Source: Membranipora membranacea (taxonomy: Eukaryota > Bryozoa > Gymnolaemata > Cheilostomatida > Membraniporidae). From it: DNA of 64,000 bases. The stretch covers positions 36,704,001 through 36,768,000 of the forward strand of contig OU612065.1 in assembly GCA_914767715.1 (NCBI GenBank), in the 5' to 3' direction. The notes beneath the pieces are model-generated. The model was not told the origin of the DNA. It made no database searches and saw only the letters and a list, made by a program, of their open reading frames with translations. A program made the position numbers and the translations under genes. Positions 2 to 64,000 of the stretch are shown here, piece by piece; position 1 is the first letter of the stretch; the number at the start of each line of letters is the position of its first letter.

Positions 2-3000
2 CAGGCGATTTATCAGTTTGCCTACCAATTGTCAGATAGATCCCAGTACGTTCCCATGCTCGTCATAGACATTGCTGAATTTGACCGTCTGGTAACTGAA
101 CAGGGAGAAGAAGTTGCCTGTGAAACAGTTTGTTTTCAATGGCTCTCCCACCTCTACCTTGCAAGCCCCAAGGCAGGCCCGCCATTTGTAGTGTTGACCC
201 ACTGTGATGTTATCGATAGCCAAATCTGCGAAACTAGGCTGAGATTGCTGATAGAAGTATCAGAACGCTTACGATCAATATTATTGAAGGAGGAGAAAGC
301 CATGGTACCAGAGAAAAGCCCAATTTTGATCATGAAAAGTTTCCAGGATACATCCCAGCCCCTTCTCACTCATCACACACCACGCTTCTTTTACAAAGAT
401 TCTGCCACTGAAGTAATTTGTGATCTGAAAACCTTCCTCGTGTCTATTGGATTATCGCTGCTCACAGAAATACCAGGTAGCTGGTATGTTCTGATGGAAC
501 TGTGTGCAAACAACAAGCAGCCATACCTGACGCTGGAAGAGCTGGACAAGCTATTTCCTGGTGACAAAGACCGCGTAATTCTTCAATACCTAAATGAAAT
601 AGGAAGAATCAAGTGGTACAGTAATAGAGAAAACCTATCCAATATAGTGTTCCATCGAATCGAGCTGCTCACACACCTGATCGAGTTGCTCTACGACCAT
701 TCCAGAAACGATACCTGGGATCAGCGGATAAAGAGTTTCCAAGCTTTTGAGGATGTGAGTCAGGATGTGAGAATAAACAAAAGGAAATACAACGACATGA
801 TTAGATCCTTCCTAGACACTGGGGTCATAAGGGATATTCTGCTACATCATCTAATCAGCCAAGAGTCTGAGGTTAGACCTGAGGTGGCAATAGAAGTATT
901 GAAGGTGTTCCATCTGATCTGCGGTCCAGTACAGAAGGGTAGTGAGAGTCACTACGTCATCCCATACTTCAGTCCGAGAGTAATCACAGTAGAGGAATCT
1001 GGGAAATACATCCCTTTGAAAGTTGACATTTGTTTCAATGGATTGGCACTTCCAAGCTATGCATATGATCTGCTTACAGCAATATATGTCAACCTCCATA
1101 TCACACCTTCCAATCACATTGATGTCGGCTGCAATGGTGCTTGTGTTAGTGAAAACAACCGCACAATCAAGTATTTATTTCACGACCGTATTGAGAAAAC
1201 CGTCACACTTATCATACTATCACCAACAGAAGAAGTAGCCACATCCTGGGGCAGCCTGCTGAACACTTTGCAACATCTGACATCACAACTAGAAGAAGTA
1301 TGGAAGGGAGCTCACTGGGAGGAAGTGTTTTACTGCTCACACTGTCTGCTTACCAAACAGGAAGACCCAACAACTCAGATTGATCCTGAATGGCAAAATA
1401 GAGCAGAGCGACAGTATACAGGGAAAGAAGTTTGTGTCTGCCAAACAGCTGGAGGTCGATCATCGGTTCCTCATCCATTCCTCTATCCATGTAAGTTCAT
1501 CACACAACTTATGTAATCTAGATCATCTGTTACTTATGATCAAAACCACTAGAATATACTATTTTTGTGCCGATTTCTACTTTAATAACTTATTCTCTTG
1601 TAACATATTCATTTATTAGGTAGCAGCATCACAGAGAGGGGGATACATACTTTAGATGAATATATATCAGGCCTTGAAGCGGAGAAGAGACAACTAGGTC
1701 AGTCATTTATATTCCTTATTATAACATATCAGTATCATAAACCGGTGATGAACTTTGTTAATGTAAGAGGGATCACTTTGTGCATGGTTGACTATTTATA
1801 CCATTTCCATTTCTTAGTGTGCCTTGATGAATGATTGAAATTCAAGATTCTTCTAAAATTAACAATCTTGATAAAAATGAATATGTTTGGCTGAATCAAG
1901 TTTTTGAATGGTTATTTAAATTTAATGGTTAGTCAACCTGCTACTATCCACAACGCTACAGGTGTTGGAGGCATCTCCAAAGTCTCCGCAAAAGCCTTAC
2001 AATCCATTATAAGCTTTACATCTTCTTTCCAGCTACAGCCTCATCACCATCTACCCCTCCTGATGTACCACCTCCGGCTGATCTACAGACAGCACAGATA
2101 GATGAGATTGTGGGTATGGTGAACTCAGATACAGCATTGATAACCCTGGACCCAACAACAGCCGATCCATCCGGTCCTCACTTTGCTACTCAGGTAAGAG
2201 TTGTACACGAGAATATAACAGTTTGTTGAAACCTATCCCTCACAGAGAAAATAGAAATGAAAATGCATAACACTGGAAGCAGCAAGCCAATCAGATCTTT
2301 GAAATTCTGCAGAAGTCAGCATACTATATCATTATCTGTACAAGTGTTTATGTAATTTGCAGAGGGTTTACGAAATGTCTGAAACTCGTGGAAGAGCTCT
2401 GATTTTATCAAACTCATACAACAACACGAGAGAAGGGTCAGCTCAAGATTATATGAATATTAAACAAATGCTTGACAAGTTCGGATTCATTACTGTAGGA
2501 GGTCACAAAACCTACACTGCACAGGTAATCGATCTGCATTGCTACTCTGTAACATCATATCATGCACAGCTCTTTATCTCCAAACCCATCACCATTCCAA
2601 ATTGATTTTAGAGTCTCAATGTACCATATTTGTCCTCTCTAAATTTAACACACACAACATATATATTTTATATTTAGAACTGTTTTGAATCAGTATTGGC
2701 GTCATTGATAATTTATAGGGACAAGGTTATTCAAGTAATTAGGTATTTGAAAGCTGATTGATCTCAATTTATGCGACACAATCACTGAAAAGTTCTTAAA
2801 AATTTGGCAACAAAACAGGCAGACATCAATATAAATAACCATCCGAAATCATAATTTTTTTCCCAACCTACGCCCCACGATCTATCTCAAAAGCGGCGTT
2901 CAGGAAAGGCAGTTTATGATTGATGGTTGAGGTTTATGATTTATGATTTCCCTATATACCGCTGTCAATATTGAAATTCACTGTTGCAATAAAATCCTAT

Positions 3001-6000
3001 GATCTTGAAGTGTGATGAGTCAACACATGGAATTCCATTCAATTACATAGAAAAGAGAGTTTTCTGAGCTCGAATTGGAGTTGTCCTCTCTCAATTTGGG
3101 TACTGTACCGTCTGCTTTGTATTATATCTCTACAGCTTTAGAATCATTAAAAACCTAGAATGGCATGCTTTTTCAAATCATTAAGGGTTTAAGAGCTGAT
3201 AAATCTCGGGTTCAGTGACAAAAACTGCGAATAATTCCAGAGAATTTGTCAACAAAATGAGCAGAAATTGATATAAACAGACAGTCAATACCAAAAAGAA
3301 TTTCCCAAGCCATGTCCCCATGAAATTTCAATGGGGAAGATGCTGATTCGGAAAGATTTTTTTCTCTTTGATTAGGTTTTTTAAAGATATTCCCATTTCT
3401 GCTCCCATTTATGCTGCATGGGGAGAACACGACTCGGAAAATAGGCTCAGATTCGAGCTGGTAAACTGTCTACTGCATTACATCATTTCAACCACTCTCT
3501 CACTCCCACCCCCCCCCCCACACTCACTCACTCTTTCTATTACCGTTTGTTTAGAGGATCGTCGCGGATATCAATTCAGAAACACAGCTCACAGATGGAG
3601 ACACAGGAGAATCATTACATAAACATCTCAACTCATTTGTGCTAGTCATTACAAGTCACGGTCTTGAAGGGTCTGTATCTGGTTATGATGGTAAACATCT
3701 CAAAATCACAGAAATATTGGGACTTCTCTCACCCAAGAACTTTCCTGCTATGAAAGGGAAGCCCAAGCTTGTGATTATACAGGCTTGCGCTGGTAGTAAG
3801 TATATTTATTTAATATTAGTTTTACCATTTTGATATATTTCTGATAAAATCAACAAAGAGACTAACTTGTTTTTAGATGTGTGAGGGGCGAAAACACACG
3901 ACCCTCGTATTGAACGTCAATTACAAGAGCAATAGGTTCCGTCCTGCACACTTCTTGTGTTTACTATATGAACGTATGATTTAAGTACTAATATTATTAT
4001 AGTTGTTTTATAGTTGTTCTCTATGGTGTAATAGTATAACTGTGCAATGGTATAATAATGTAATGGTTAGCACTTCTAAACAAAGGACTTGAATGCAACT
4101 TTGCAAATGTTACTCCTTGCTAATAGTACGGGACACCCCTTGCTCATAGCTCAAACAAATTAAATATCAATTAGATCTATAAACCAGACAAGATTAGCCA
4201 AGTTACAATTAAACAAGGAGTAACAGGAGTAACAGTCCCCTGTTACTCCTTGCTATTAGAGATTATGAATGCTACTATTTATGAATAACAGTAGAGAGTG
4301 AAAATCCAGTATTAATATGGCTGGACTAAAGCGCGAAATATAACAAGCGCAAAGATTAACAGTATAGCTAGCCACGACACTTACCACGAAAATGCCAATA
4401 GAATTGCTTCTCTCAGAAATCAGATTCAAGATATATTTGATCCGCCGCGGGAAGGTTGCAAGTGGCTGTTTTGCAATATCAAATGGACCCTCAACAACGT
4501 TTTCGACGATCAGTCGAAAGAACCAAGGACTTTTTTTTGCCTTGAACTGGAGCTTTATCAATAATTAATTGGAAGGGTTTCAACCTCGAATATTGCCTTG
4601 AAATAAAAATTAAGATTTTTCAACAATGTGATAAACTTACCTCGCCATCAAATGACGGTCTGCTCCTTGCTCCCTTCGGCCGGAATTCGATATACGTGAT
4701 TTGAACTAGTTCAATAATTTCACCAAGTTGTTGGTTTATGTTCTTTCTTTATTTTGTGATTCAAATTAATTCGATAATTTCAACAAGTAGTTTGTTTGTG
4801 CTCTATCTTCATTGAAGGTCTCAGTTTGAAAATTAGTATTCTATCAGAGAGAATCAAAAGTGTACTACTCCTTAGCTATCCCTAAGATGAGCTGCCGCTT
4901 GCGTTTTCTGCAGTTCTTTAGAAAGTCATATTATTTGTTGAGTTATTCTTTCTTCAGTAAGCATCACTTGACAATCAAATACTTGGATAACTAAAAATCT
5001 AAAAATTCTGAAAATCTAAAATAATCTCATCTAGTAAATTATAAAATTATTGTCGGTTGAAAGTAGAAATAAAAATCTAAATTTATGAAAATCTAAAATA
5101 ATCTCATCTAATAAATTATAAAAGTATTGTCAGTTGAAAGTAGTAACAAAAATCTAAAATTATGAAAGTAGTAAACATGGATTATATATAATGATTTCAT
5201 AAAAATGTACGCGTTAACAATTATTTCCATTTAATAAAATGTAGGCTTCTATTCCGAATGATTGTACTAGATGTGATAATTATAATAATTTATGTGTCTA
5301 TAGTGAGGTGTAGTGTGGTGTATTGTAGCGTAGCGTAGCGCAGCGGACACTATTTAATTCATCCTGATTTGTCACTTGGTAGGTAGAAGAGAAATGTTTC
5401 TCACAGATACGCCCTCGCCTCAAGTAACGCTCAATCAAAGTCCACCTACAGTAGAGACCCTCAATCAGCCTTCTGTCTCATGTGATGAGAACAATGATGA
5501 GGAAAGTGCTGACCACATCGATGAATCACCTACTGCTGTCGCTCATGATATCTCTACAGCTGACTTTATTATCATGCAGTCAAGCTTTGATTGTAAGTTT
5601 CCAGAGAGTTGTATATGTTAGGTAAATTCGCGCCCTTGGTATCTATATTAAATAATCAATAGAAATCCCATTTTCATGGGGAAATCCAACTTGAATTCAA
5701 GTTGTCTCCCTATTACCAATCAGGAGATAATTCTAAGTTTCATAGATACCAAGGGCGCGAATTTACCTATTATTACCATGTTCAATAAGAGATTGATTTA
5801 GTAAGCAATTCCTGGCCAGTCACCAAGTTTAATCCAAGGTTTCATTCTGTAGGGTATTCCACTACATAGCATAAGTAGAATAATATACACAAATGAAAAA
5901 GAGTCAGATCAAAGATCTTACTATGTGATAGATCAGCAAAGATAACACAATCATGATATGTCATGCAGTAAGAAATCAATACGTTGTGTATGTGTTAAAC

Positions 6001-8439
6001 TGACAATCTGACATAATTGACAAAACTGACAATCTGAAACTTCATTTAAATTTTTCAGCGTTTATGTCATTTCGGAGATTTGCAGTCGGTTCAGTATTTA
6101 TTCGTAGCCTGGTATCAACATTCTATAGATACGCTGCTACACATCACCTTGAGGAACTGGCAGCAATTGTAAGTTTTAGAGAATAGACACTACTGCTATG
6201 TTTATTATACCCAATGCATTGGAGAAGTTTTGCACAAGACAAATAGTGTTTAATACACTCTTTGTCTGATTACGTTAACTCTTTGGTTTCGTCAAGAATG
6301 TTAAATTGCCATGCCCAAGTTTCTGAACATGCCCCACAAGTGAAATATCTCCCTTTAGGTGAACTCTGCTTGAGCTATGATATACGGTGTGTTCGCATAA
6401 CACATAAATATACCGTAACTCAATGACATTTAGAAATCCATTTTTATCCTCAATAGTATTTCAGTTCAGTATTTCACATTGAGATACCGTTCTTGCTAGT
6501 ATCAAACTCTTCAATTTATCCAAGAAGAGTCATGTACTGGCTGGCTGACATCCCAGGCATTTGGTCCCATAAACTAAGCATGAAGTTTGTTCCTAAACAA
6601 CTAAATCAACGCTTAATAACGCCAAAAAATTTTCAAGCATATAACAAGTTGGTTGATTTCAGGTCTCAAAACCTTTTTTTAGGAAAAGACCAGTACTAGT
6701 TCGTACCTCACACTTATATATAAGTGGTTATTTACCCACTCCTACAACTATGATTGAATTAACAGGTCAGAGAGGTAGTGGCTAAGGCTGGGACTAAAAG
6801 AACAGAATATCTACTGAGGACCCGGACGAATCCAAGGAGCATTGTGAAGGCTCATCGTGCCTCAATGCCGCAGACTAGGTGTACTTTCCTGGGTAATAAG
6901 TTCTATCTGCAGCCTGGTATCAATATGAGAACAGAGGACCACCCAGAATCCCTGAGACATCCTGTGCTACCCAATCCTACTGCTACGAGGATTAAAGAAC
7001 TACCAGGTAAATACAAACAGCTGCATCATAGAGGAGAATCTGATGATGTTCAGGCATGAAATCCTCACCCCTGGTTTCCTGGCCTACTGGCGATTCAGAA
7101 AACTCTTCTCATGTCCTCATGCCCCCCAAATCAATTATTCTCCTTGCGTTGTAACTATTGTCCCTTCATTCCACTAAATTTGGTCAACTTCTGGGGAAAT
7201 ACGTCCAAAATTAGAGCATATTTTATCAGTATAGTATGGCATAGTTGAATTATTAAATATAAGATTCTTGTAAATCATCACAAATTGATGTAGTTTGTAA
7301 GGAGATGGCTTCTTTTTCTTGGCAAGGGTCTAGCCGTTGTTAATTGCACTGACCTGATTTAGGGTATTGGACGTCTACAGCTTCTCTGTACGCCAAAATT
7401 GTAAACTAATGTTAACTGAACTAAAACATGATTCGAAACTGTAAGTTGAACAACAACAAAATCACCTCGGCTCCAATAAACAACAACATATTGCTTGGCA
7501 CTGTGTTTTGGTGCTTAAAACTGGAGATGTACATACACTAATTATATAGGTAAAAAAAGCTTCAGAGAACTCTTTTCAGAGTCCTAAGTACTCCAAAACA
7601 GAGCTATATAGGGCATTTCCCATACATCAAAATAAGCTATTAATTCCATATCCTAAACACACAGAATTAAATTCTTTTCTTAGAATGGAAATAGTATCAT
7701 AACATCATGCAGTTAGAACACTTAACACAGGGGCTCATCTGAAATTGATCTGATTGGCTGTCCCTACTAGCATGAATTATATAGCCTGGGAAATCAACTT
7801 CTTTACAAAACTGCAGACAGTATTAAAATGCCTTCAACGCATTCTGCGCATGCTCAGCTCTGGGCATGAGCTGATCTCTGCAAAATTGAGTCTCGGAATT
7901 CTGAAGCCATCTGATTGGCTACCTGCTCTAGTGACATACTCCCCAAAGCGTGCGGATTTGTTATTAATAGTTATCCTCTCTTGTCATTATTAGCTGATTT
8001 TGATTGACAGTTTATGCAGGGGATATCACATTTCCCCTTTCCAAAGTTGCAATCAGAACCCAAACTAAACTCATTGTTCTTGCACATGCGCAAATTCAAG
8101 TCACGCCTGATGCATACTTAGCCTTACGACAACTGCTTTGTGGTAATGATAGCCTAGTTTATCAGTGATCTACATGCTCAGTCAGATCACGAGAGTCAGT
8201 ATGCCTTCAACGTCGATGATTTGGGCTTTTCCAGAATGCTACTAGGGACTGGCTATTTTTGCAAGCCCATTGTTTGGCAAAAGAAAGCTAATGATGCTAT
8301 TCCAGATATGGAATTCAATGCCTAAACAATATATACCATCTGATTTCTTTCTTTAGACAAGATACAATCAGTCACAACGGGAGGGAAGGTGGAGACAACG
8401 ACTTATTACCAGTGGTTAGTTGAGAAGAACACACAATGA
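2..8439 (+). CDS. ROCO (Roc-COR) GTPase fused to a caspase domain; 5' end outside window
   Basis: Exons: 2-1490 (open to the window edge; an AG at 3-4 could be an acceptor), 1620-1697, 2033-2193, 2363-2524, 3555-3795, 5383-5592, 6059-6168, 6766-7006, 8357-8439. All junctions are GT-AG, phases agree and the visible part is 924 codons plus TGA. Residues 1 to about 150 are the second half of a Roc GTPase domain, with a THCD G4 motif at 66-69 (LRRK2-type THxD). About 155-450 is COR. A Pro/Thr-rich linker (about 520-580) leads to a caspase: RGRALILSN at the start of p20, His665 in SHG, Cys708 in QACAG, a linker with acidic Asp sites, then p10 with SFRR and a KFYLQPG end. From family knowledge, Roco proteins are dimeric GTPases and caspases cleave after Asp. 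I infer GTPase-regulated proteolysis. The LRR or other N-terminal region is not visible. Confidence 0.9.
2525..3554 (+). other. Intron 4 of the ROCO-caspase gene, with a diverged internal duplication
   Basis: No coding exon was found here. Two segments, about 2611-2960 and 3072-3420, share a run of similar blocks in the same order: a GTCCTCTCT block, an AGCTGATxxATCTC block, then AAATTTGGCAACAAAA or its variant, and TTTCCCAA. I read this as an old, diverged tandem duplication of roughly 460 bp. Confidence 0.45.
3555..3795 (+). CDS. Caspase p20 catalytic exon of the ROCO-caspase gene
   Basis: This exon carries both catalytic residues. The His codon is at 3657-3659 (context ITSHG) and the Cys codon at 3786-3788 (context IIQACAG). 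The usual pentapeptide is QACxG with Arg most common at x; here it is Ala. The S1-pocket Gln before Ala-Cys is kept. The acceptor follows a pyrimidine run ending at 3554 and the donor is GTAAGT at 3796. The frame is phase 0 in and phase 1 out, matching its neighbours. Confidence 0.92.
3796..5382 (+). other. Intron 5 of the ROCO-caspase gene, repeat-rich
   Basis: This intron separates the catalytic Cys exon from the p20-p10 linker exon. It contains inverted GTTACTCCTTG motifs (4105-4255), a roughly 78-bp direct duplication at 4690-4812, an 84-bp tandem duplication at about 5002-5165, and a short GTAGTGTGG/GCGTAGCGTAGCGC-like run just upstream of the acceptor. The open frame on the minus strand at 4256-4561 has no recognisable product. 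Confidence 0.5.
5002..5165. repeat. 84-bp tandem duplication in an intron
   Basis: Two adjacent copies of an AT-rich unit run through AATCTAAAATAATCTCATCT and then TTGTCxGTTGAAAGTAG. They differ at a few positions. No coding content is evident. Confidence 0.7.
5619..5769. mobile_element. MITE-like foldback element with perfect 28-bp terminal inverted repeats
   Basis: The first 28 bases, starting TAGGTAAATTCGCGCCC, are repeated exactly in reverse complement at 5742-5769. The 95-bp interior is AT-rich with its own small palindrome (CAACTTGAATTCAAGTTG). There is no coding capacity. It lies 26 bp after the splice donor of exon 6 of the ROCO-caspase gene. Perfect arms suggest recent insertion or conversion. 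Confidence 0.85.
7007..8356 (+). other. Last intron of the ROCO-caspase gene
   Basis: No exon or named element was seen. Reading through the donor at 7007 would give a short alternative end with a stop at 7057-7059. Splicing to 8357 restores an open frame with a matched phase (G plus AC gives Asp) and adds 27 residues before TGA, so I prefer the spliced form. Confidence 0.6.
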
Positions 8440-9436: not shown

Positions 9437-25418
<15,982 letters not shown>

Positions 25419-26414: not shown

Positions 26415-26855
26415 TCTGACTCGGTGAGTAGAGTACCCACATTGAAAGATGACCACATAGACCACTGCTTCCATGTCTGGGGATTTCCACAGTCAAAAAC
26501 CTTGGGAACATGTGGGATCAATAAAAATTCAAGGGCCGGTATGCTTTCTGTTCGTGTGAGAATAATACCTTCAACCAGAAAACTTGAACGATTATGGAGC
26601 TATTACTTAGGCATACACATATCTCTAAAGTACAGTACAAACAACAGACAGCTAACAGACAGCTCTCATACATCTCATGTATAGCTTCATCAGATAGCAG
26701 GGCCTGACGACTCGGTAAATATTTTTGAGACATCTAAAATTTTCTTCAAGCAACTCACTAGAATATCGCTCACTAGCAGGTATCGCTCACTCAGTGAGTG
26801 AGACATACCTGCTAGGCTCTTGCCTTGATGCCTTCCGACTATCTCCCGCACACTG

Positions 26856-27797
26856 GTGTTTGGTATAACTCATGTGAAATTTGAGGTACCAGACCATGAG
26901 CGGTGCATAGAACTGGATGTTAAAACTGATTATGACATCAATGTGTATACAGATGGTTCACGAAATGATCTCGGCGTCGGATCAGGTGTAAACATTACTA
27001 GTAATAATAATCCTCCTTTTGTACGAGATATAGAAGAGTTTCAATGCCTTGGAAACACAGTAACAGTATTCCAAGCTGAAATTACTGCTGTCTCAAATGC
27101 TCTCACAGCTGTTCAATTCTTAGAAGGGCTGAATATTGCCATCTATATTGATAGCCAGGCTGCAATACATGCGCTTAAATCACATCTACACACTTCCAAA
27201 TTAGTCTTAGAATGCCGAAACAAGCTGAAATTACTTGGACATAGAAATAAGATCAAGGTCATTTGGGTACCAGGACACATTGGAATTTATGGAAATGAAC
27301 AAGCGGACTTACTTGCGAATGCTGGTTCTGCCCGTGACTTTTATGGTCCAGAACCAGCACTCCCTGTAACCCAATCAGTCATAAAGCAGGGAATCAAAGA
27401 GTGGGTGATGGATTCGAAAATAATTTATTGGAGAAATTGTAAACATGGTAATCATACAAAATCACTCATTAGTGAACTGAATCTAAGATTTGAAACTGGT
27501 CTCCTCTGCTTTGAACGCTCAGAGATCAGTAACCTCATATCAGTTGTAACTGGTCACGGGCCATTCAAGGTACACCTACAAAAACTCAAGCTAACAGATG
27601 AAATAGACTGTCCAAAATGTGGTCAAGACAAGGATACAGCCCTTCACTTTGTAACCTCATGCCAATTCTACAAACAGATGAGGCAGCGAACCTTTGGTCA
27701 ATCCGTCCTAAAGGGGGCAGCTAAGCCAACTTGCATCACAGTTTCAGATTTGCTCCGATTCATTCGTATTTCGGGGCGTTTTGAACAACGATGCTAG
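26856..27797 (+). mobile_element. 5'-truncated non-LTR retrotransposon: RNase H and CCHC C-terminus
   Basis: A 313-codon open frame, translated from the first usable codon, has an RNase H fold with the catalytic set Asp33 (YTDGS), Glu75 (FQAEI), Asp99 (YIDSQ) and Asp151 (NEQAD). The motifs WVPGHIGIYGNE and a CPKCG-x-H-x4-C cluster (Cys252, Cys255, His264, Cys269) follow, and it ends at a TAG. This is the usual C-terminal layout of LINE polyproteins that carry RNase H. No reverse transcriptase or endonuclease region lies upstream, so the copy is a dead 5' truncation, although this segment has no stop. A domesticated RNase H gene is possible but has no support. Confidence 0.88.
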
Positions 27798-38135: not shown

Positions 38136-38755
38136 TCACCATATAAACAATGGCATACCGTCATCTGCGGCCATAACAGCTAAGCACTGTAGCAAAATAA
38201 GAATGTCCTGCCTCTCTTGCTGGGGAGCCACCTGGTCGACGATATCCCTCATCAAACCTTCATCGGCCACCTTAATGTTAATCTGTCGAGATTCTGCTTT
38301 ACCCTGCTTCATGACTCCGTGCTTATTAACCAACATGCTGGCAAAGTTACCATGATGGGGCACAACGTAACCCAGAGAGTGTAAAGTTCTCATCAGAAAC
38401 GTGTATCTATCTAGCATTACTTCTTTGATCTCACCAGTTTCCCTCTCTATGATTCGCTGCTGCAGATTTACCACATTGTAGCCATAGAAGCTCTTATAAC
38501 GACATTCTCTATTGAATTTACCATTGAGGACGAAGCTGAGAATACGCTTGTCAAGTTGGAACGCGATTTCACCGAGCACTCTAGCATGATTACTCTCAAG
38601 TAAGCTCAACTTGTCCAAATCTGATCCCTCGCCTATTGCCTGTGATATTGGCGTATTTTTGTCAGCTTTTGACGGAGATTCAGTTTTGAATGTTGACTGT
38701 TTCGGCGTATAAGAAGTCACCAGATGTTTTGGTTTGTCTGGTGGCTTTTGTCTGC
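38136..38755 (-). CDS. SPATC1: Speriolin C-terminal domain exon
   Basis: This 620-nt terminal exon holds the whole conserved speriolin C-terminal domain and ends in TGA right after the invariant-looking LFIW. A TTTTAG acceptor at 38756-38761 sets its start. The in-frame ATG further upstream (38810) lies in the intron. Confidence 0.93.
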
Positions 38756-41700
38756 CTAAAAGGGAAATTGGGGATCGAGTAGTGACCAACAATGGTGAGA
38801 GAGTGATCAACAGATATTATACTACAACCTAAGGCAGAATCGCTTATATCAATTGCTTCCTCATTTCAAACATACCCCTCAATTATTCGATTTCTAACAT
38901 GACAAGGATCCATCATTCAGATCATGAAAGCAATCTTCCAAGCTCGCAGTAAAAAAAGGGGTTTTGTAAATTTTAGGTCAATTGTGACTGATTACTTTCA
39001 AGACCACTAACTCCAAAAACTTAAGAGCACTTCGGAACCTAACCGTCATATAACCTAGGAAAATATGCACTCTACTCTACAACAAGTTTGTTCCTTCTGC
39101 GGTGGCAGAGTGATTTTGCAAAGACGGTATCAATTTGCGGGCCTTTATACACAGACACAGCTTTCTAGGTGTTTCTCCACATTCACTGAGGAAACATTTT
39201 TGTTCTAACTCTACCCCCAACTGGATCAACCAACTCCAGACAAGGTGACTACTATTAGGATACAAGGTTTGCCTTGGAAATTCTTTTACCTGCAGTGATA
39301 GTTTTTGGACAAGGCTTGGAGGTCTTCCCGTTTGTATATATCACTTTATGGCCATCTTGTGCTATCGTATAAGTCCTGTTGAGGTCAACCTTTGATGGTT
39401 TCAAACCCTAAAATTTCAACGAAAAACTTTAATAACCAGACATACCAAATATGTTAAATAATATATTTGTATACATATTATATGTTATATATGGCTGATG
39501 GCTGATGGCTGAGCGGTTGCTAATTGTTTGAAACTGAGTCATGGACATTATCATAGTTTGGGATAAATTCCGATATGGTGTAAAAAAAATGGCTGAGAAC
39601 TAGACCAATAACGACAATATATTCCTCAATTTTGAGCCTCACCCCTCACTACAGTAGCCAACTAGAACAAAAACACGGGTAAAAAGGAACCCACTGCAAT
39701 CTGTGCACTAAAAATATCGAGAACCGCTTCTCATGGTCTGAAGATAAATTTGATGTGGGGGTATCTACCTCACTGGTTTATTACTCATGTTGATTGGTAA
39801 AGTTACATCTGGTTACTCATCGTGTTGCTAGATGGTAACTTATGAGTCATTGCTATATACATATTATGTATCAGAACATAGGGAGCTGGGTCACCGCCTT
39901 TTCACACATGGGATTATGATCCATGGTTGTTTGGATCTCTCATGCTGTTATTGAGGAAAATGATGCAAAATGCTGTGATTACTCTCCTCCAGATGACTTC
40001 TGACCAATGGTGGGCGGAGACTAAAGGCAAAGGGTATTATGCGATTGTATACAAAATATTGTTGAATGGAACCTTAGATAGTGTGGATCCTTTCGTGTTT
40101 GTAGCGCCTGTCGTTTTCCTTTCTGGTGGTTTTCTAGGAGCAACATGCAGATGACTGTTCTCACATGCTTCCCAATGGGTAAGGAGTTGCCCTTTCTGTT
40201 TGGGTTGGTTTTGTAGATGTTTGTCACAATGTGATGTGAAGTAGCTGGACCTTGTGCCATCTTTACTTTGTAGATTCAGACCTGTTCAAAAGTCAGTCAG
40301 CGATGTTCTGGCCGAACCATAATCCATTAATTTTTTTAAATTAAACTTTTAGCGTTGCGAGCTATCTTATTCCAAATCGTGAATATCAAGGTTTAGAGAA
40401 ACAGGTGAATTGTTCAAAACTTTAATCCAAGGACTGTAAGCTGTACTGTGACAAAAAAAAACTTGATACATACTGTCACTGTCAGAGGTATGGCTCGTAT
40501 CTGAATATCCAGTCTGCACACAACGCGGAGATAAATGATATGCATTCACATTGCAGTTGTCTCCCTTGTCACGCTGTGATTTGTGAGATGGTGATCGCTT
40601 GTAACTCTCTGAGGAACAAATAAAAAGACATTAAACTATAAGCTAATTCTGCCTAAATACTATGGTATTCGGTATGAATATCAAATATATCAAATATCCC
40701 TCAAACCCATAAAACAAGTATAGAATTCTCATTTCACAACAGACAGACCAGGCTCCTTAAGGAATTATCCTGATAATACCTTCGGCCATTTATCGTAAAC
40801 ATTGGCCATATCTGAATCATTTAAATTTCAACTCCCTCAAAGAAAGGAAAAAATTGTAGTAACTAAGTTTTATTGCATTATCTTTTCTAAGTTTGAATGA
40901 AATCGCACGTCTTGTATAATTTAAGACTACCAACTCCTGATTATATTAAATCCAATAACTTTCACATGTTGTTAACAATATAAAATAAGCCCTGAAACTA
41001 CCCCAACATTCGCATCATTTTTGTAGTAAATTATCCTTATTTGCAAAACCTTGTATTCTCACACAATCACACAAAATTATGGATCTCGACCTTAACACCT
41101 CGGATTCTCCGTCATACGGCTGGAAACTTCCATCAGGGACTTATGATATGACCTAGATTAATAATCTTCACTAATAAACACCTTTCTATGTGCCTATATT
41201 TATTGGCAGCAATATTACTGGGTATCTCCCATGTCTATAATTCAACTAAATATTGGTAACATATTTTTATGTATAAGCCCAATTTACCCGAACAATTCAA
41301 TAATATCGATAAAACACGTAGGTGACTGACTTCTCTCGATATCAGCATGGTCCAAGAGCATTGGTGGATCAAGGAAAGCACAACTACTAAACAAACCTAC
41401 GCCCAGCTCTCCTCCACACTAACGCGTAAAAAGGTGGCACAGTTTTAATAAAATAATGACAGCATGATTCGGAGTTATGTTCTTATGATAGGATATAACC
41501 AAAGATGGCATATGACATATGACCGATCTGGCTTGGGGATATGTATATATTACAATGCTATGTTATATTGTCAGTTTCAGCAAAGTGAAGTTGGCTTGGA
41601 ATGTTTTATTAAAGTTTTTGAAAAACCCAGCTTGCCAATATTTTCTCCCACGAAATTGATCACTTTTCGGCATGCTCTTGCCAAACGTTTTAAAGATTGT

Positions 41701-47579: not shown

Positions 47580-50500
47580 ATCTCCCTCGTCGAACATCTC
47601 AAAGAAGAAAGGAGGTATCTCTGTCGGTTTGTCTAACTTTACAGCCAAAACTCGCTCTGCATGTCTTGTAGAAATGGTGCGTAAATCTGTCACCTGGAAA
47701 AGTCAGGAGAGGCTTAAATGATACTTATCTTCTAGAATAACATAAATAATTGGTAGCTATCGGAGGTCGTCCTCTCTCAGACATATTCTGATAAATTCAC
47801 CCGGCACGCAATGTTTCTTAGAACGGAATAAAAAGCTGACTGTGTAAATCAGGACTGGACAATTGTCAGATCATTGGAAGCCCTAGTAAGATGTGCACGG
47901 CATTATAATCTTAAACTGAAATATGTCACCGACCTTTGCGGCTCATTCATATGTGGCAATCATTTTGTCAGCAAAGAGCATAGATAATTGCTATATACGC
48001 AAGAGTTGCCCACCCTCAACAAGCTTTTCCAGTTACAACAATTCTGTGATTAAATGCAATAGGTTCTGTTCTCAGGCAAACCGATGAACTCAGCAAACTT
48101 CACCCAATAAATTACCATCTCTCGACTGCGAGACAATTACTAACGTACACTCGGCTGTATAATTTACCAATTGCAATCAGTTTTTAGAGCTAAGCGTTGA
48201 TGATATGGCAGTTTGTGTGGAAATATTTGTTATTTGACGCTTTACAAAAGCCAATGTCTAGTGATTCAATGCTCAACAAAATTACAGCTGATATTTCTCA
48301 AGAATAATGTTTTTGAAGAACTATTTTTATCGATAAATGCTTTGTATTTTATCCCATTTTCCCAAAACTATAAAATATATAATCGTTAAAATAAACGGAG
48401 AGTTACATTTGGCCCATGAGTTCTGTGACTGGTTGTATTAAGAATACCTTCATAAGGATAGTAGCCCATCTCCCTAGAGAGTGTTTGCGCTGCTCACACA
48501 CATATCGGTTGAATGCACCAAGAATAGTCTCCAGTAATTTCTCTACTTCGAGGCTGTTTTTCAAACCTGTCCGATCTGTAATGAGCAATATTTTAACACA
48601 TAAAAGCAACAAAAAGCTTTTATTTATCGTAAACCAGAGATTGTTAAATATGGTAATTCGGTAATATGGTAAAATAAATGATAACATGGTAAAATAAATG
48701 GTAATATGGTAAAATGGTAGTATGGTAATATGATATTGAATCTCTCTCACTCTCTTATGGAATTGGTAGATATTTGATAATTTTCCATCACCCACCCTAT
48801 TACAAACTTCAATAACTATTATTGATGTTTTTTTTTCCGATGTTTTTATTTTTATACGCTACCTTTAAGCCATAGACCATGAAAAATCTCATCCCAAAGA
48901 ACTCGATCATTTTCTTGGATATTAAATATCCTTGATATTATATTATTTCACATGATAATATTGGTTGTGTGTAGTCAACAAATTATTGTTAGAAGTTAAC
49001 ATTAAAAAAAGATAAAAAAATAATTGAATAAATCTTCTCTTATTGTAACCCTTCATTTACCAACCTTCACCTCTTCCTGTAGGAGTACTCGCAGATGATA
49101 CAATTCTAAAGCTGTATATATATATATATACGTATATCATACAATCTTTGATTTATCTTAAGGTGACAACTGGATGATAAAGTGATGACCATTCTCACCT
49201 GATTGCATTAGGAGCACTGCAGCCAACATGGCGACCTCTGTACTGTCAAGGTCAAGCCTTGAAATGCTTTTTGCGAACTCGAATATGGGGACCATGAGCA
49301 TACTGACGCCATAGTGTGAGATCTCACTAAGCTGATTCTGATACAGCTTGTAACCGTTAGCCAACGTCAGCGACTGATCTGAATTGTTGTAGCGACATGC
49401 CGCTCGTAGGCACATGATCTCCATACAGCACGACTTCAACAAGAGTATGCGGTCGTCTAGGTTGAGCTGAAAAAAAAATGACAATTTATTTTTTGCCTGT
49501 AAGATATTACATGGGAGACTGATTAATTTATGATGTTCGGAATAAATAGTCGAGAGATGTATTAAAATGAGGACAGATTATCGTAAGAGTGACCTCAACA
49601 AACATGATAGAGGACATCGCTCAAGGGATATACTTCAAAGCAACATGAAATATTATAACTTCAAGTAATATAACTTCAAGTAATATAACATTAAGTAATA
49701 TAACATCGAGTAATATAATATGACATTAAGTCATATAACAAGAAGTAAATAACATCAGGTAACATCCAGTCACACCAAGTAATATAATTGTATGAAATGG
49801 GAGGGAACCGTGTTTAATCCGGATCAAATCTGCCACATTTCTAAATGTCTGTCTAGTGACGGTGCATCAATTTTGAAAAAAAGATTGCGCCAATTCTGGA
49901 GTAACAGAAGATGATTATTAGATGATTCACATACCATTTCAAAACCAGGAACATTTTTGGCGAAATCAACAACTTTAACAATGGAAGGTGTTATGACCTC
50001 CGCCAGTTGTTGCCACATTTTATTGCTGTTGTCTTCCGTCTCCATAGCAACCGATGGCTGTAACATATAATTTACATTTTATTCCAGTCTGTCACAACTT
50101 GTTTGGTAATCATGGTTTCATCACGAAACAAATTAGAGTACAATGCTGCGGTGTGAACTGGCCTGTAATTATTTGAGCCAGTCTCATCTCATGCTATAAC
50201 GCCAGCGATGATGAGCTAATGTAGAGGGGATGTGCTCAGCAGAGCTATTACAGTGTTGAGGTGACATGACATGGTTCTTTATAAAGTAATTGTCAGTTTG
50301 TGAGTGTTTTGTTTAGGCTTTTACTAGGTCACATGTGAATCTTTGTAGGACTAATGCAAAATTATAGCTTTGCCATAATAAAGGTTCTATATAAAATCTT
50401 AATTCTAGGTGTTCAATGACTTCTGGTAATAATACAGTGTATATGTGGTTTCAAGTACAGATAGTTATTGTGACGAGGTCAATATTTGCACTAATCAGTT

Positions 50501-53500
50501 CAAGTCCTCTGTTCAAGCGTTATAATTATGGGCAGAATAACCGCATACCCAGACAGCCAAGCTTTGCTGTCTCAACAATGAATGGATGTGAATCAAATTT
50601 GTTTAGCTTATTTGTTGTGGTCAGCAACAAAACAGAATGGCTGGTAGGGAAAGAAAAAACGCACAGCTCAGACCCAACACCTGGCCAGTAGCCTCAGGCA
50701 TAACTCAGACCGAGACTACGCACAGAAAGTCTAACACAGACTTACAGACAGCGGTTCGTTGACCTTTGCACTGGCAGCGCTTTTCTCGAATGCCTGAACA
50801 ATGCTGCTGATGAGGTAAGCATCAGGCTCTCTAAGGCTTGAGAGACTACTGCTGGAAGATTGTACACTTGTAGAACTACCACTTGGGCTTACTGAAGCTC
50901 CAGAACTAATTGATGACATGCCAACTTGATTAGGCATTGTAGCGGTCTGTAAAGACAAAATAAGAAATATTCAAATTTTGAATATATCTGTGATGATTTT
51001 AGCACAGAATCAGAAGCAACTTCTTGTTTTCTTGATCACAGAAGTCTCACTTGGGATTATTCCACAGAATGTTTCACCTTTAAGTAGGAGGGGGCTTTGT
51101 AGAGCTTCATGATGATAACATAGTGCTGCCTAGAGGCATCTCAACCTCACACTGTCTCAGGTCAGCTACTTGTAACCTGAGGTGCTGTCTATATAAGTTG
51201 CCCAATAGTCTTTAGCTCAATACGGATCAGATCAAGTGAGCTGAATTAGCGGATTAGAGATGTCACAGCTGATAAGGAGAATGTGTTAAGCACAATAATA
51301 ATGACAGAAGTGTACAGACCTCCATGTCACGTCGCCGGCGCTCCCGATTTTCCTCAATCAGCTTACGTTTTGCAATTCTTTGTTTCTCGTTGAGAACAAC
51401 TGAAAGAAAATCAAATGGAGAATAGGTAACACCAATGGAAGCATCATAAAACAAGATTAGAGTATTCCCAAAGTCACCTCACCAATTTGAATTCGAGATC
51501 AATAAAGAGAGCAGACAACTTCTGGAGAATTATTTTGCAGACACCCTTAATTCATGGTATATATATAATACATAAAATACATTATTCTACAATATAATAA
51601 ACCTAATTCTATTGTAACTTAAGACACCTTTATCGTGTAGGATAACTTATATCTTGTGATCAGCTGGGCAGTGTGGTAAGACCAAACACATGTCAGGTGA
51701 ATTTTTGCGTAAGGTCTCTCAGCTGGTGCTGGGTCAAAGAGAGTTAATTTTTATAGGAACAAATATTTATCCTATAATTTTTGAAGGTGAGAGAAAAGGA
51801 AGATCAAGTAGAAATGTGTAATTCACTGATAATATACCAAGGAGTTAGAGGAACTCCTTGAACAGACAGATTCGCTTGAAATGATTGCGAACTCTGTGAT
51901 TCAGTTTGACCCAAAGTTATCAATTAGGAACTTATGAGCAAGAAAGGCCGAATAAACATGATCAGTTAGGGATATCTACTCACGATCAGTGGCCATTCCG
52001 ACAGCTAGACACTTGTTAAATCTACACTGCTGACACTGGTTCCTTGTGTTCTTGTCGATGACACACTGTCCATTCCATTTACAGTGATATTTCAAATTCT
52101 TCTGGATGGTTCGCCTGAAGAAACCCTTGAAAATAGCAGAGAAACGGATCATGTAAGCAAAACCCTGCAGCTCATAGCAGTTGCGTAACAAATACAATAA
52201 CATGAACTTTCACTACGCCAGAAATTCCAACAGCGGTATTAAATTCACTGTAGTATTATTTATCTTTCCAATGAAGTGCCAGAAAAAAAGTCTCGATGAA
52301 TCAAGTAGAAGTTTTTGGCCATTATTTTACATTATGTTTTAAGCTGAACGTATAAATGATCAACGAATGTTTTATGGTATAAGTCATTTGGTCGAGTACA
52401 GTGTTTGCCTCGGAAAATTACACAGAAAACTGGATTGCTCAAGGACAATACGGTTCCAGGGTGTCATTGTCAGAATGACAACACAACACCTGCTGTTTGC
52501 AGCACCTTGAGCTTTGAAACTACAATATGGGTCAATTCTCAAAACTTTGAAGAATAGAATATTTTAAATGGGACAATTGAAGATATGTTCAACAAAACTC
52601 TAAATGATAATAATACATACATAACATAATGAATAAATAGCCTTATAATCCTTCGAATAAAGACATTAAGTGAGAGAAGCTTACCTTACACCCCTCACAT
52701 GTCATACATCTGTAGTGGTAGCCAGTGGCAGCATCAGAACAGACAACACAGGGCTCTGGTCCATTAGTCAGGTCCATATAACTAGGTATATACGGAGTAC
52801 TACCTCCAGTAACCCCACCTACAATCAGACAAAGTACAAATCTGATAGGAGTACTACCTCCAGTAAGCCCACCTACAATCAGACAAAGTACAAATCTGAT
52901 AGCCTGCTTTGGTCTTATATACTGAGAGAAGAGATGTGTAGTAGTGTGAGATAAGCTGTGGCCATGGCCATGGTGAGGGTGAGGTCTGTAAGGACAGGTG
53001 ACTCCATCAGGCATAATTATCGATATCAAAAGGAACCATCTCTAAGCAGGTGCTATCACTCATCAGATACAACTACATCTGCTGTCATCCTTATAATAAG
53101 CATGGTTTAATTTACGCCACCGCCACTGTTATCATTTCATCATATGTGAAGATGCTATCCCGTAAGGCTTAAGCCAAGGTGTGGCTTTCATTAACCAGAG
53201 GTGTTACAAAGGAACAGCCCTAATCAATGGCAGGAGGGTTTCTTTAGGACCACACTGTGCCTGGTGAAGATGGCCCACACGGATTGTTTGGTGTGAGTTT
53301 GTGAAAAGCACATTATATTATGTAGTTGAATACGCTGTGGATGGCAAAAGCAAGAAAAAACAACTTGACTTGCATTCCAAATAAAATATATCTGTGATTA
53401 ATGAAGGATAATTCAGTAGGACTCACGTAGCAGCATTACTAACAGTAGTCTACTGCCTGGCACAGTATACAGTTTGGGGAACTATTGTATTCGCAGTGAT

Positions 53501-63213: not shown

Positions 63214-63409
63214 GTAACAACATCCAGTGGCAGCCTAGAGAGCAGGGACATCAAACTATCCTACAGCAAGAAAGCTTTCCACTGAATCTGGTGTTTTCTG
63301 ATAGAAAGTTTGTCCTCCGAACTGCTTCTCGTAAAATAAATATGAATAAAATTGGTTAGGGTTATAAACATGTAAATACAAACTGGTGGTGAGTTAGAGG
63401 CTTGTGTAA

Positions 63410-64000
63410 GTGTGTAATGTGTGTAAGTGTGTAAGTGTGTAAGTGTGTAAGTGGCAATGTGTGTAAGTGTGTAAGTGGCAATGTGTGTAAGTGGCAATGT
63501 GTGTAAGTGGCAATGTGTGTACGTGTGTAAGTGGCAATGTGTGTAAGTGGCAATGTGTGTAAGTGGCAATGTGTGTAAGTGGCAATGTGTGTAAGTGGCA
63601 GTGTGTGTAAGTGGCAATGTGTGTAAGTGGCAATGTGTGTAAGTGGCAATGTGTGTAAGTGGCAATGTGTGTAAGTGGCAGTGTGTGTTAGTGGCAGTGT
63701 GTGTAAGTGGCAATGTGTGTAAGTGGCAATGAGTGTAAGTGGCAATGTGTGTAAGTGGCAGTGTGTGTAAGTGGCAGTGTGTGTAAGTGGCAATGTGTGT
63801 AAGTGGCAATGTGTGTAAGTGGCAATGTGTGTAAGTGGCAGTGTGTGTAAGTGGCAATGTGTGTAAGTGGCAATGTGTGTAAGTGGCAATGTGTGTAAGT
63901 GGCAGTGTGTGTAAGTGGCAATGTGTGTAAGTGGCAGTGTGTGTAAGTGGCAATGTGTGTAAGTGGCAATGTGTGTAAGTGGCAATGTGTGTAAGTGGCA
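63410..64000. repeat. 16-bp minisatellite running off the window
   Basis: At least 35 copies of GTGTGTAAGTGGCAAT with CAAT/CAGT variants, after a few shorter GTGTGTAA units. Because 16 is not a multiple of three, the repeat stays open in three minus-strand frames and produces long Thr/His/Leu-repeat translations that are not genes. Confidence 0.97.

Follow-up and report, generated by a model that had tools for sequence, protein, structure and literature searches.

Caspase activation in animals usually involves sensors and adaptors that are distinct from the protease itself, and to our knowledge none of the standard animal Roco families carries a caspase. The locus at the left end of the window, which is the whole stretch of 64,000 nucleotides that was analyzed, raises the question of whether a Roc-COR GTPase and a caspase can be encoded together in one animal gene. 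With sensor, GTP switch, and protease in a single chain, control of a caspase by a Roco GTPase could be addressed directly, and the chain would lend itself to a construct in which protease activity reports changes in Roco conformation, a topic that is still open in the case of LRRK2. Furthermore, the LRR-GTPase-COR-caspase order would be common to animals and bacteria by descent, transfer, or convergence, which is relevant to how death and immune modules arose.

The gene model has been rebuilt from the raw sequence. It comprises nine exons between positions 2 and 8439 of the forward strand, which together provide 924 open codons leading to a TGA stop at 8437–8439. All eight introns have GT-AG boundaries and the phases agree at all eight junctions, confirming the coordinates and codon count of the initial annotation. 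Exon 1 (2–1490) is open to the left and contributes 496 full codons up to its donor; it encodes the C-terminal end of Roc, beginning immediately downstream of G3 and including the G4 motif THCD, followed by COR-A and COR-B. The linker between COR and the caspase begins in exon 2 (1620–1697) and continues in exon 3 (2033–2193) as a Pro-rich stretch leading toward the caspase. The caspase p20 is encoded by exon 4 (2363–2524), which contains the RGRALIL and TREGS stretches, and exon 5 (3555–3795), which contains the catalytic SHG and QACAG. The donor of exon 5 is ambiguous, as 3792 is an alternative to 3795 that leaves the phase unchanged and shortens the protein by one residue. Exon 6 (5383–5592) encodes the intersubunit linker and the start of p10 (DFIIMQSSFD), while exon 7 (6059–6168) encodes the part of p10 that contains SFRR and GSVFIRSL, and exon 8 (6766–7006) encodes the end of p10 (FYLQPG) and the beginning of a tail. 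Exons 4, 5, 7, and 8 are covered by the Pfam caspase match described below, and exons 4, 5, and 7 by alignments with CED-3 and caspase-1. Exon 8 has been aligned with the C-terminus of caspase-1, where that piece scored alone falls below zero. Exon 9 (8357–8439), which contains the C-terminal tail and the TGA, is the weakest-supported exon, as it is placed by phase and GT-AG boundaries only and no homology found covers it. Just inside the intron that follows exon 6 is a perfect 28-base inverted repeat (arms at 5619–5646 and 5742–5769, 95 bases apart), which resembles a small mobile element with a palindromic structure. A search with Rfam at gathering thresholds gave no match anywhere in the window.

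The identity of the C-terminal half is the clearer of the two. The initial annotation described a complete caspase, and this description is borne out by a match to PF00656 (Peptidase_C14) with E = 3.3e-30 at residues 585–864, which spans the full model (positions 1–233 of 233), as well as by the catalytic His (SHG), the catalytic Cys (Cys708 of QACAG), an Asp-containing linker, and a p10 containing SFRR and GSVFI. The best matches among solved sequences are animal caspases (caspase-1, 1.8e-12; CED-3, 2.7e-12; caspase-4, 9.6e-12), and 163 distinct PDB sequences match the caspase at E < 0.001. In three alignments, the SHG, QAC, TREG stretch, and SFRR/GSVFI of the window protein line up with caspase-1 or CED-3, and we take the Arg residues of TREG(S) and SFRR to be S1-pocket positions. 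As judged from its p20 His and Cys and its putative p10 S1 Arg, the window protein is a caspase (peptidase C14A). The linker at residues 711–770 holds six Asp residues, which is no more than suggestive of Asp-specific proteolysis and self-processing. The active-site pentapeptide is QACAG in the window protein and QACSG in a related protein from Bugula neritina (described below), as opposed to the usual QACRG. No CARD or DED is found among the Pfam matches of the 924 residues at E values up to 1, with the true N-terminus lying outside of the window. Pfam also finds no protein kinase domain in the 924 residues running from Roc to the stop; in the DAPK order the kinase is N-terminal of the LRRs, a region outside of these residues.

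Assignment of the N-terminal half as Roc-COR depends on relatives, because the Pfam support of the window protein itself is weak. On its own, this protein gives a COR-A match with E = 0.076, which is below the cut-off for that model, and no Roc match, as its Roc is cut off at the window edge. The G4 motif THCD is the only Roc G motif inside the window, with G1–G3 and the P-loop to its left, and when the COR exon alone was compared with PDB sequences, two matches were obtained (best E 0.72), neither of which is credible. A protein search identified 23 relatives (P0001–P0023), among which P0001, encoded on another contig of 2.5 kb, is 97% identical to the window protein over 410 amino acids. P0001 contains LRR-like repeats, recognized by eye, followed by GQTMAGKTS, DFGG, and THCD, and an LRR and Roc P-loop probably lie to the left of the window in the same manner. 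As P0001 could represent an allelic copy, a close paralogue, or the counterpart in a sister species, the left part of the window gene itself can only be inferred. Exon 1 also aligns, fully or partly, with the 22 relatives other than P0001, and all 18 relatives (of these 23) that were put into an alignment share the same P-loop residues and the T-H of G4.

With a profile search, the family gained five more fragments, and P0029, a distant, bacterial-looking LRR-Roc-COR protein of 1029 amino acids, was also reached (family profile E 5.3e-9). Among the 28 relatives P0001–P0028, G1 is present in 19, DxGG in 21, and G4 in 23 (THxD in 22 and THTE in one). Most relatives without these motifs are fragments in which this region is missing, and the true exceptions are P0020 (DFAG), P0016 (THTE), and P0028 (no G1 stretch). 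Pfam scans of 14 sequences, comprising the window protein together with 13 of its first 23 relatives, matched Roc (PF08477) in 12, COR-A in seven, COR-B in three, and the caspase in two, which are taken to be the window protein and its Bugula relative; the LRR models match only a few members (LRR_14 in three of the 14). The predicted fold of the relative P0002 matches CtRoco, LRRK1, and LRRK2 across Roc-COR, with LRRK1 and LRRK2 among the best structural matches. The family profile also matches CtRoco in the PDB (2.3e-15), but in the LRR-Roc region only (profile positions 48–166), which corresponds to sequence left of the window. The predicted fold of the Bugula relative is poor (pLDDT 51, pTM 0.34) and was left out of the evidence. 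The proposed Roc-COR identity is therefore upheld through the relatives, and by its motifs the family is assigned to the Roco proteins, as it has Roc G1, G3, and G4 motifs with COR directly after Roc.

The remaining question is whether the two halves belong to one gene. A protein of the bryozoan Bugula neritina that is annotated as 'CASP2' (P0021; UniRef A0A7J7KAE5_BUGNE) aligns with window residues 226–712 in one stretch that covers COR, the linker, and p20, with 33–34% identity over 53% of the window protein and 46.5% identity over 86 amino acids at exon 5. P0021 unites the same parts in one model as the window gene, but it has QACSG in place of QACAG and is incomplete at both ends, as it begins within COR and ends early in p10. 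P0022, in which Pfam recognizes Roc and COR-A and inspection by eye suggests LRR-like repeats, overlaps P0021 with 97% identity over 289 amino acids. Due to this overlap and the upstream LRR-like repeats, Roc, and COR, P0021 and P0022 are probably one gene of Bugula or a near relative, with P0022 as its upstream part. As the B. neritina gene set is reported to be an AUGUSTUS prediction guided by transcriptome hints (PMC7576161), the P0021 junction may lack read coverage.

It could be argued that two neighboring genes have been wrongly joined in the window, namely a Roco gene that ends after the COR exon and a caspase gene that starts near exon 4. The presence of a Met at residue 581, which is encoded by exon 4 and immediately precedes the caspase core, and the encoding of the Roc-COR part by a single long exon are both consistent with such an arrangement. 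However, the annotated Bugula gene has the same junction at 33–34% identity to the window gene, which argues for a real one-piece gene and against a local accident. Furthermore, the similarity of the linkers exceeds that of shuffled sequences. When the window sequence was shuffled 1000 times, only one shuffle reached the score obtained for the linker alone (end of the COR exon to the caspase core; 87 residues in the window vs 89 in P0021; z 4.7), and none did so after removal of the last 11–12 residues (z 4.0); the same test gives z 28 for the COR part and z 19 for the p20 part. The introns at this junction are only 129, 335, and 169 bases in length, and neither AATAAA nor ATTAAA occurs on the forward strand in 1491–2362. 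In the window, the COR exon is bounded by a donor at its 3' end, and the residues of the relatives suggest the same for them. A Pro-Cys near the end of this exon is found in the window protein and 22 of the 28 relatives, and at the same place in P0021. In the 22 sequences that read on (21 relatives and the window), the following residue is E in 15, K in six, and R in one, as expected for read-through of a T/GTRAG donor, where the DNA was seen for the window only (T/GTAAG) and the donors of the relatives are deduced. Wrongly joined neighbors are thus very unlikely, and the view of the initial annotation that one gene joins Roc-COR to the caspase is supported by the frame, the phases, the Bugula junction, and the linker. 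Among the relatives, which were seen as proteins, continuation into a caspase is known for P0021 only.

The initial annotation was made without awareness of this layout in the standard animal families. No animal Roc-COR-caspase protein was found in the open-licence PubMed Central literature, a scope that does not include bioRxiv and most subscription papers. In contrast, bacterial LRR-AP-GTPase-COR-caspase proteins (PMC8195603) and animal LRR-caspase hybrids (PMC2575513) have been published. The bacterial LRR-AP-GTPase(Roc)-COR proteins have an identical order in which a caspase is possible as the C-terminal effector, and are present in several copies per genome; no fewer than 24 domain types, TIR, caspase, and trypsin among them, occur at their C-terminal position, their LRRs evolve rapidly, and they are proposed to be counter-invader systems (PMC8195603). 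The window gene differs from these proteins in its eight GT-AG introns and in its caspase, which among solved structures is closest to animal caspases, where the bacterial caspase members were compared by description only. The LRR-GTPase-COR-caspase order of the window gene is itself a composite, in which P0001 provides LRR-Roc-COR and the window provides the end of Roc followed by COR and the caspase. A bacterial origin or gene form does not fit the introns, the animal-gene neighbors, or the lack of any close relative of the COR exon among the bacterial and archaeal genomes searched; the family alignment has no close relative in viral contigs.

Among animal proteins, the LRRs-caspase and TNFR-caspase 'shortcut' proteins of amphioxus are similar to the window gene in that a receptor part is fused straight to a caspase, and the terms GTPase, Miro, and Roc are absent from the main text of that paper (PMC2575513). 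The cnidarian LRR-Roc-COR-TIR proteins, found in sea anemones (PMC5094078), the Roc-COR protein with TIR of Aplysia (PMC9334734), and the Roco proteins with CARD or death domains of Trichoplax (PMC4104024) are described as having an immune or death output, but this output is a TIR or an adaptor domain and not the protease itself. A survey of bivalve caspases reports CARD, DED, death, and dsRNA-binding prodomains, while 'GTPase' and 'leucine-rich' are absent from its main text (PMC7836458). LRRK1 and LRRK2 have the Roc-COR fold in common with P0002, whereas the partner of Roc-COR in the window gene is a caspase; MFHAS1 and DAPK1 represent animal Roco families that were set beside the window gene by description only. 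Consequently, the domain order is known from bacteria, and its animal form appears to be undescribed in the searched literature, with one member present in databases as 'CASP2'.

The reach of the protein searches affects how the distribution of the family should be viewed. These searches return only proteins that share exact words with the query and are 0.55–1.75 times its length, and the first protein search and the profile search scored the 7998 candidates that share the most words. Due to these word, length, and candidate limits, absence from other phyla is weak evidence. A second protein search, with words from residues 300–924, gave five matches, all among the first 23 relatives, and no caspase fusion; its silence on fusions means little, because Bugula P0021 itself was not returned.

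From its domain content, it is reasonably probable that the window gene encodes sensor (LRR), switch (Roc-COR), and caspase in one chain, and the protein looks like a one-piece immune or death receptor. It is predicted to begin with LRRs. Induced proximity is a general rule for caspase activation. In the proposed mechanism, the LRRs would sense a ligand, and ligand binding would alter the nucleotide state of Roc. COR would then change its dimer or higher-order state, such that the caspase domains joined to it either come into proximity or are set free. Finally, the caspases would cut their own Asp-containing linker, leading to cell death or an inflammatory response. Such a protein would act in the manner of an inflammasome or apoptosome reduced to a single polypeptide, without the CARD/DED adaptor step. 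The nearest published mechanism is that proposed for the bacterial LRR-AP-GTPase-COR proteins, as LRR sensing, Roc-COR switching, and caspase output would follow its logic. Artificial dimerization of a caspase domain leads to apoptosis, as cited in the amphioxus paper (PMC2575513). GTP-bound CtRoco is reported to be an active monomer (PMC11052575), which leaves two possible signs for the switch, with the caspase either assembled or released by GTP; by analogy, this behavior would speak against a simple step in which GTP makes the dimer.

The main rival to a death receptor takes the gene as real and joined and assigns the caspase a regulatory or non-apoptotic role, either as a substrate-binding decoy or as a signaling protease. 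While QACAG and QACSG in place of QACRG and the 924 residues without CARD or DED are in keeping with such a role, the His, Cys, and S1-pocket Arg positions, the functions of which we presume from other caspases, are retained in the alignments. About 70% of effector-position caspases are inactive in one bacterial conflict-system set (PMC7159879), but the amphioxus hybrid caspases, which have QACXG with X = R, Q, or G, were judged likely active by the authors of that study (PMC2575513). On balance, a non-death role is rather unlikely. If the animal is colonial, the one-chain receptor could also serve in allorecognition or in the rejection of colony fusion instead of pathogen defense. B. neritina, the source of the only relative among the matches that bears an organism name, is a colonial bryozoan (PMC7576161), bryozoans are named as one of the colonial groups in which allo-incompatibility involves cell death (PMC8195603), and the relatives P0002–P0020 are diverse, with best stretches 38–57% identical to the window protein. 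This assignment is nonetheless quite improbable.

The identities also bear on how large the family may be. The best stretches of P0021–P0023 are 26–33% identical to the window protein, and each relative other than P0029 is 34 to 97% identical to its nearest relative, a span that implies many loci or species. It is tentatively proposed, with more doubt than is attached to the one-chain receptor itself, that these proteins form a bryozoan-centered family of one-chain LRR-Roco-active caspase death receptors. This family would exist as many diverging copies that provide an immune or self/non-self repertoire, in parallel to the bacterial LRR-AP-GTPase-COR-caspase proteins, and would carry out adaptor-free cell death.

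The remainder of the window contains several other features. A gene on the reverse strand at 10700–25100 contains a bromodomain (11139–11414), a helicase C domain (14607–15107), and an SNF2 domain (15853–16221), and is presumably a SMARCA2/4-like chromatin remodeller. The Gln/Met/Pro-rich frame at 24185–25090 on the same strand may be the N-terminal part of this gene. A thyroid hormone receptor-like gene is located at 49161–53041 on the reverse strand, with a ligand-binding exon that matches THRA best (5.8e-21) and a C4 zinc-finger exon. The SNF2/bromodomain and thyroid hormone receptor-like neighbors identify the DNA as animal. A bryozoan is the best guess as to its source, given that Bugula is the sole organism named among the relatives, and at about 33% identity this source would be distant from Bugula. 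An open frame at 26829–27794 on the forward strand encodes RNase H (Pfam 6.7e-15) and is perhaps a retroelement piece, and a frame at 38139–38816 on the reverse strand contains a Speriolin C-terminal domain (Pfam 1.2e-28). The right end of the window (63264–64000) is a simple repeat that reads as THCHLHTLPL-type sequence in more than one reverse-strand frame, and is an array and not a gene.
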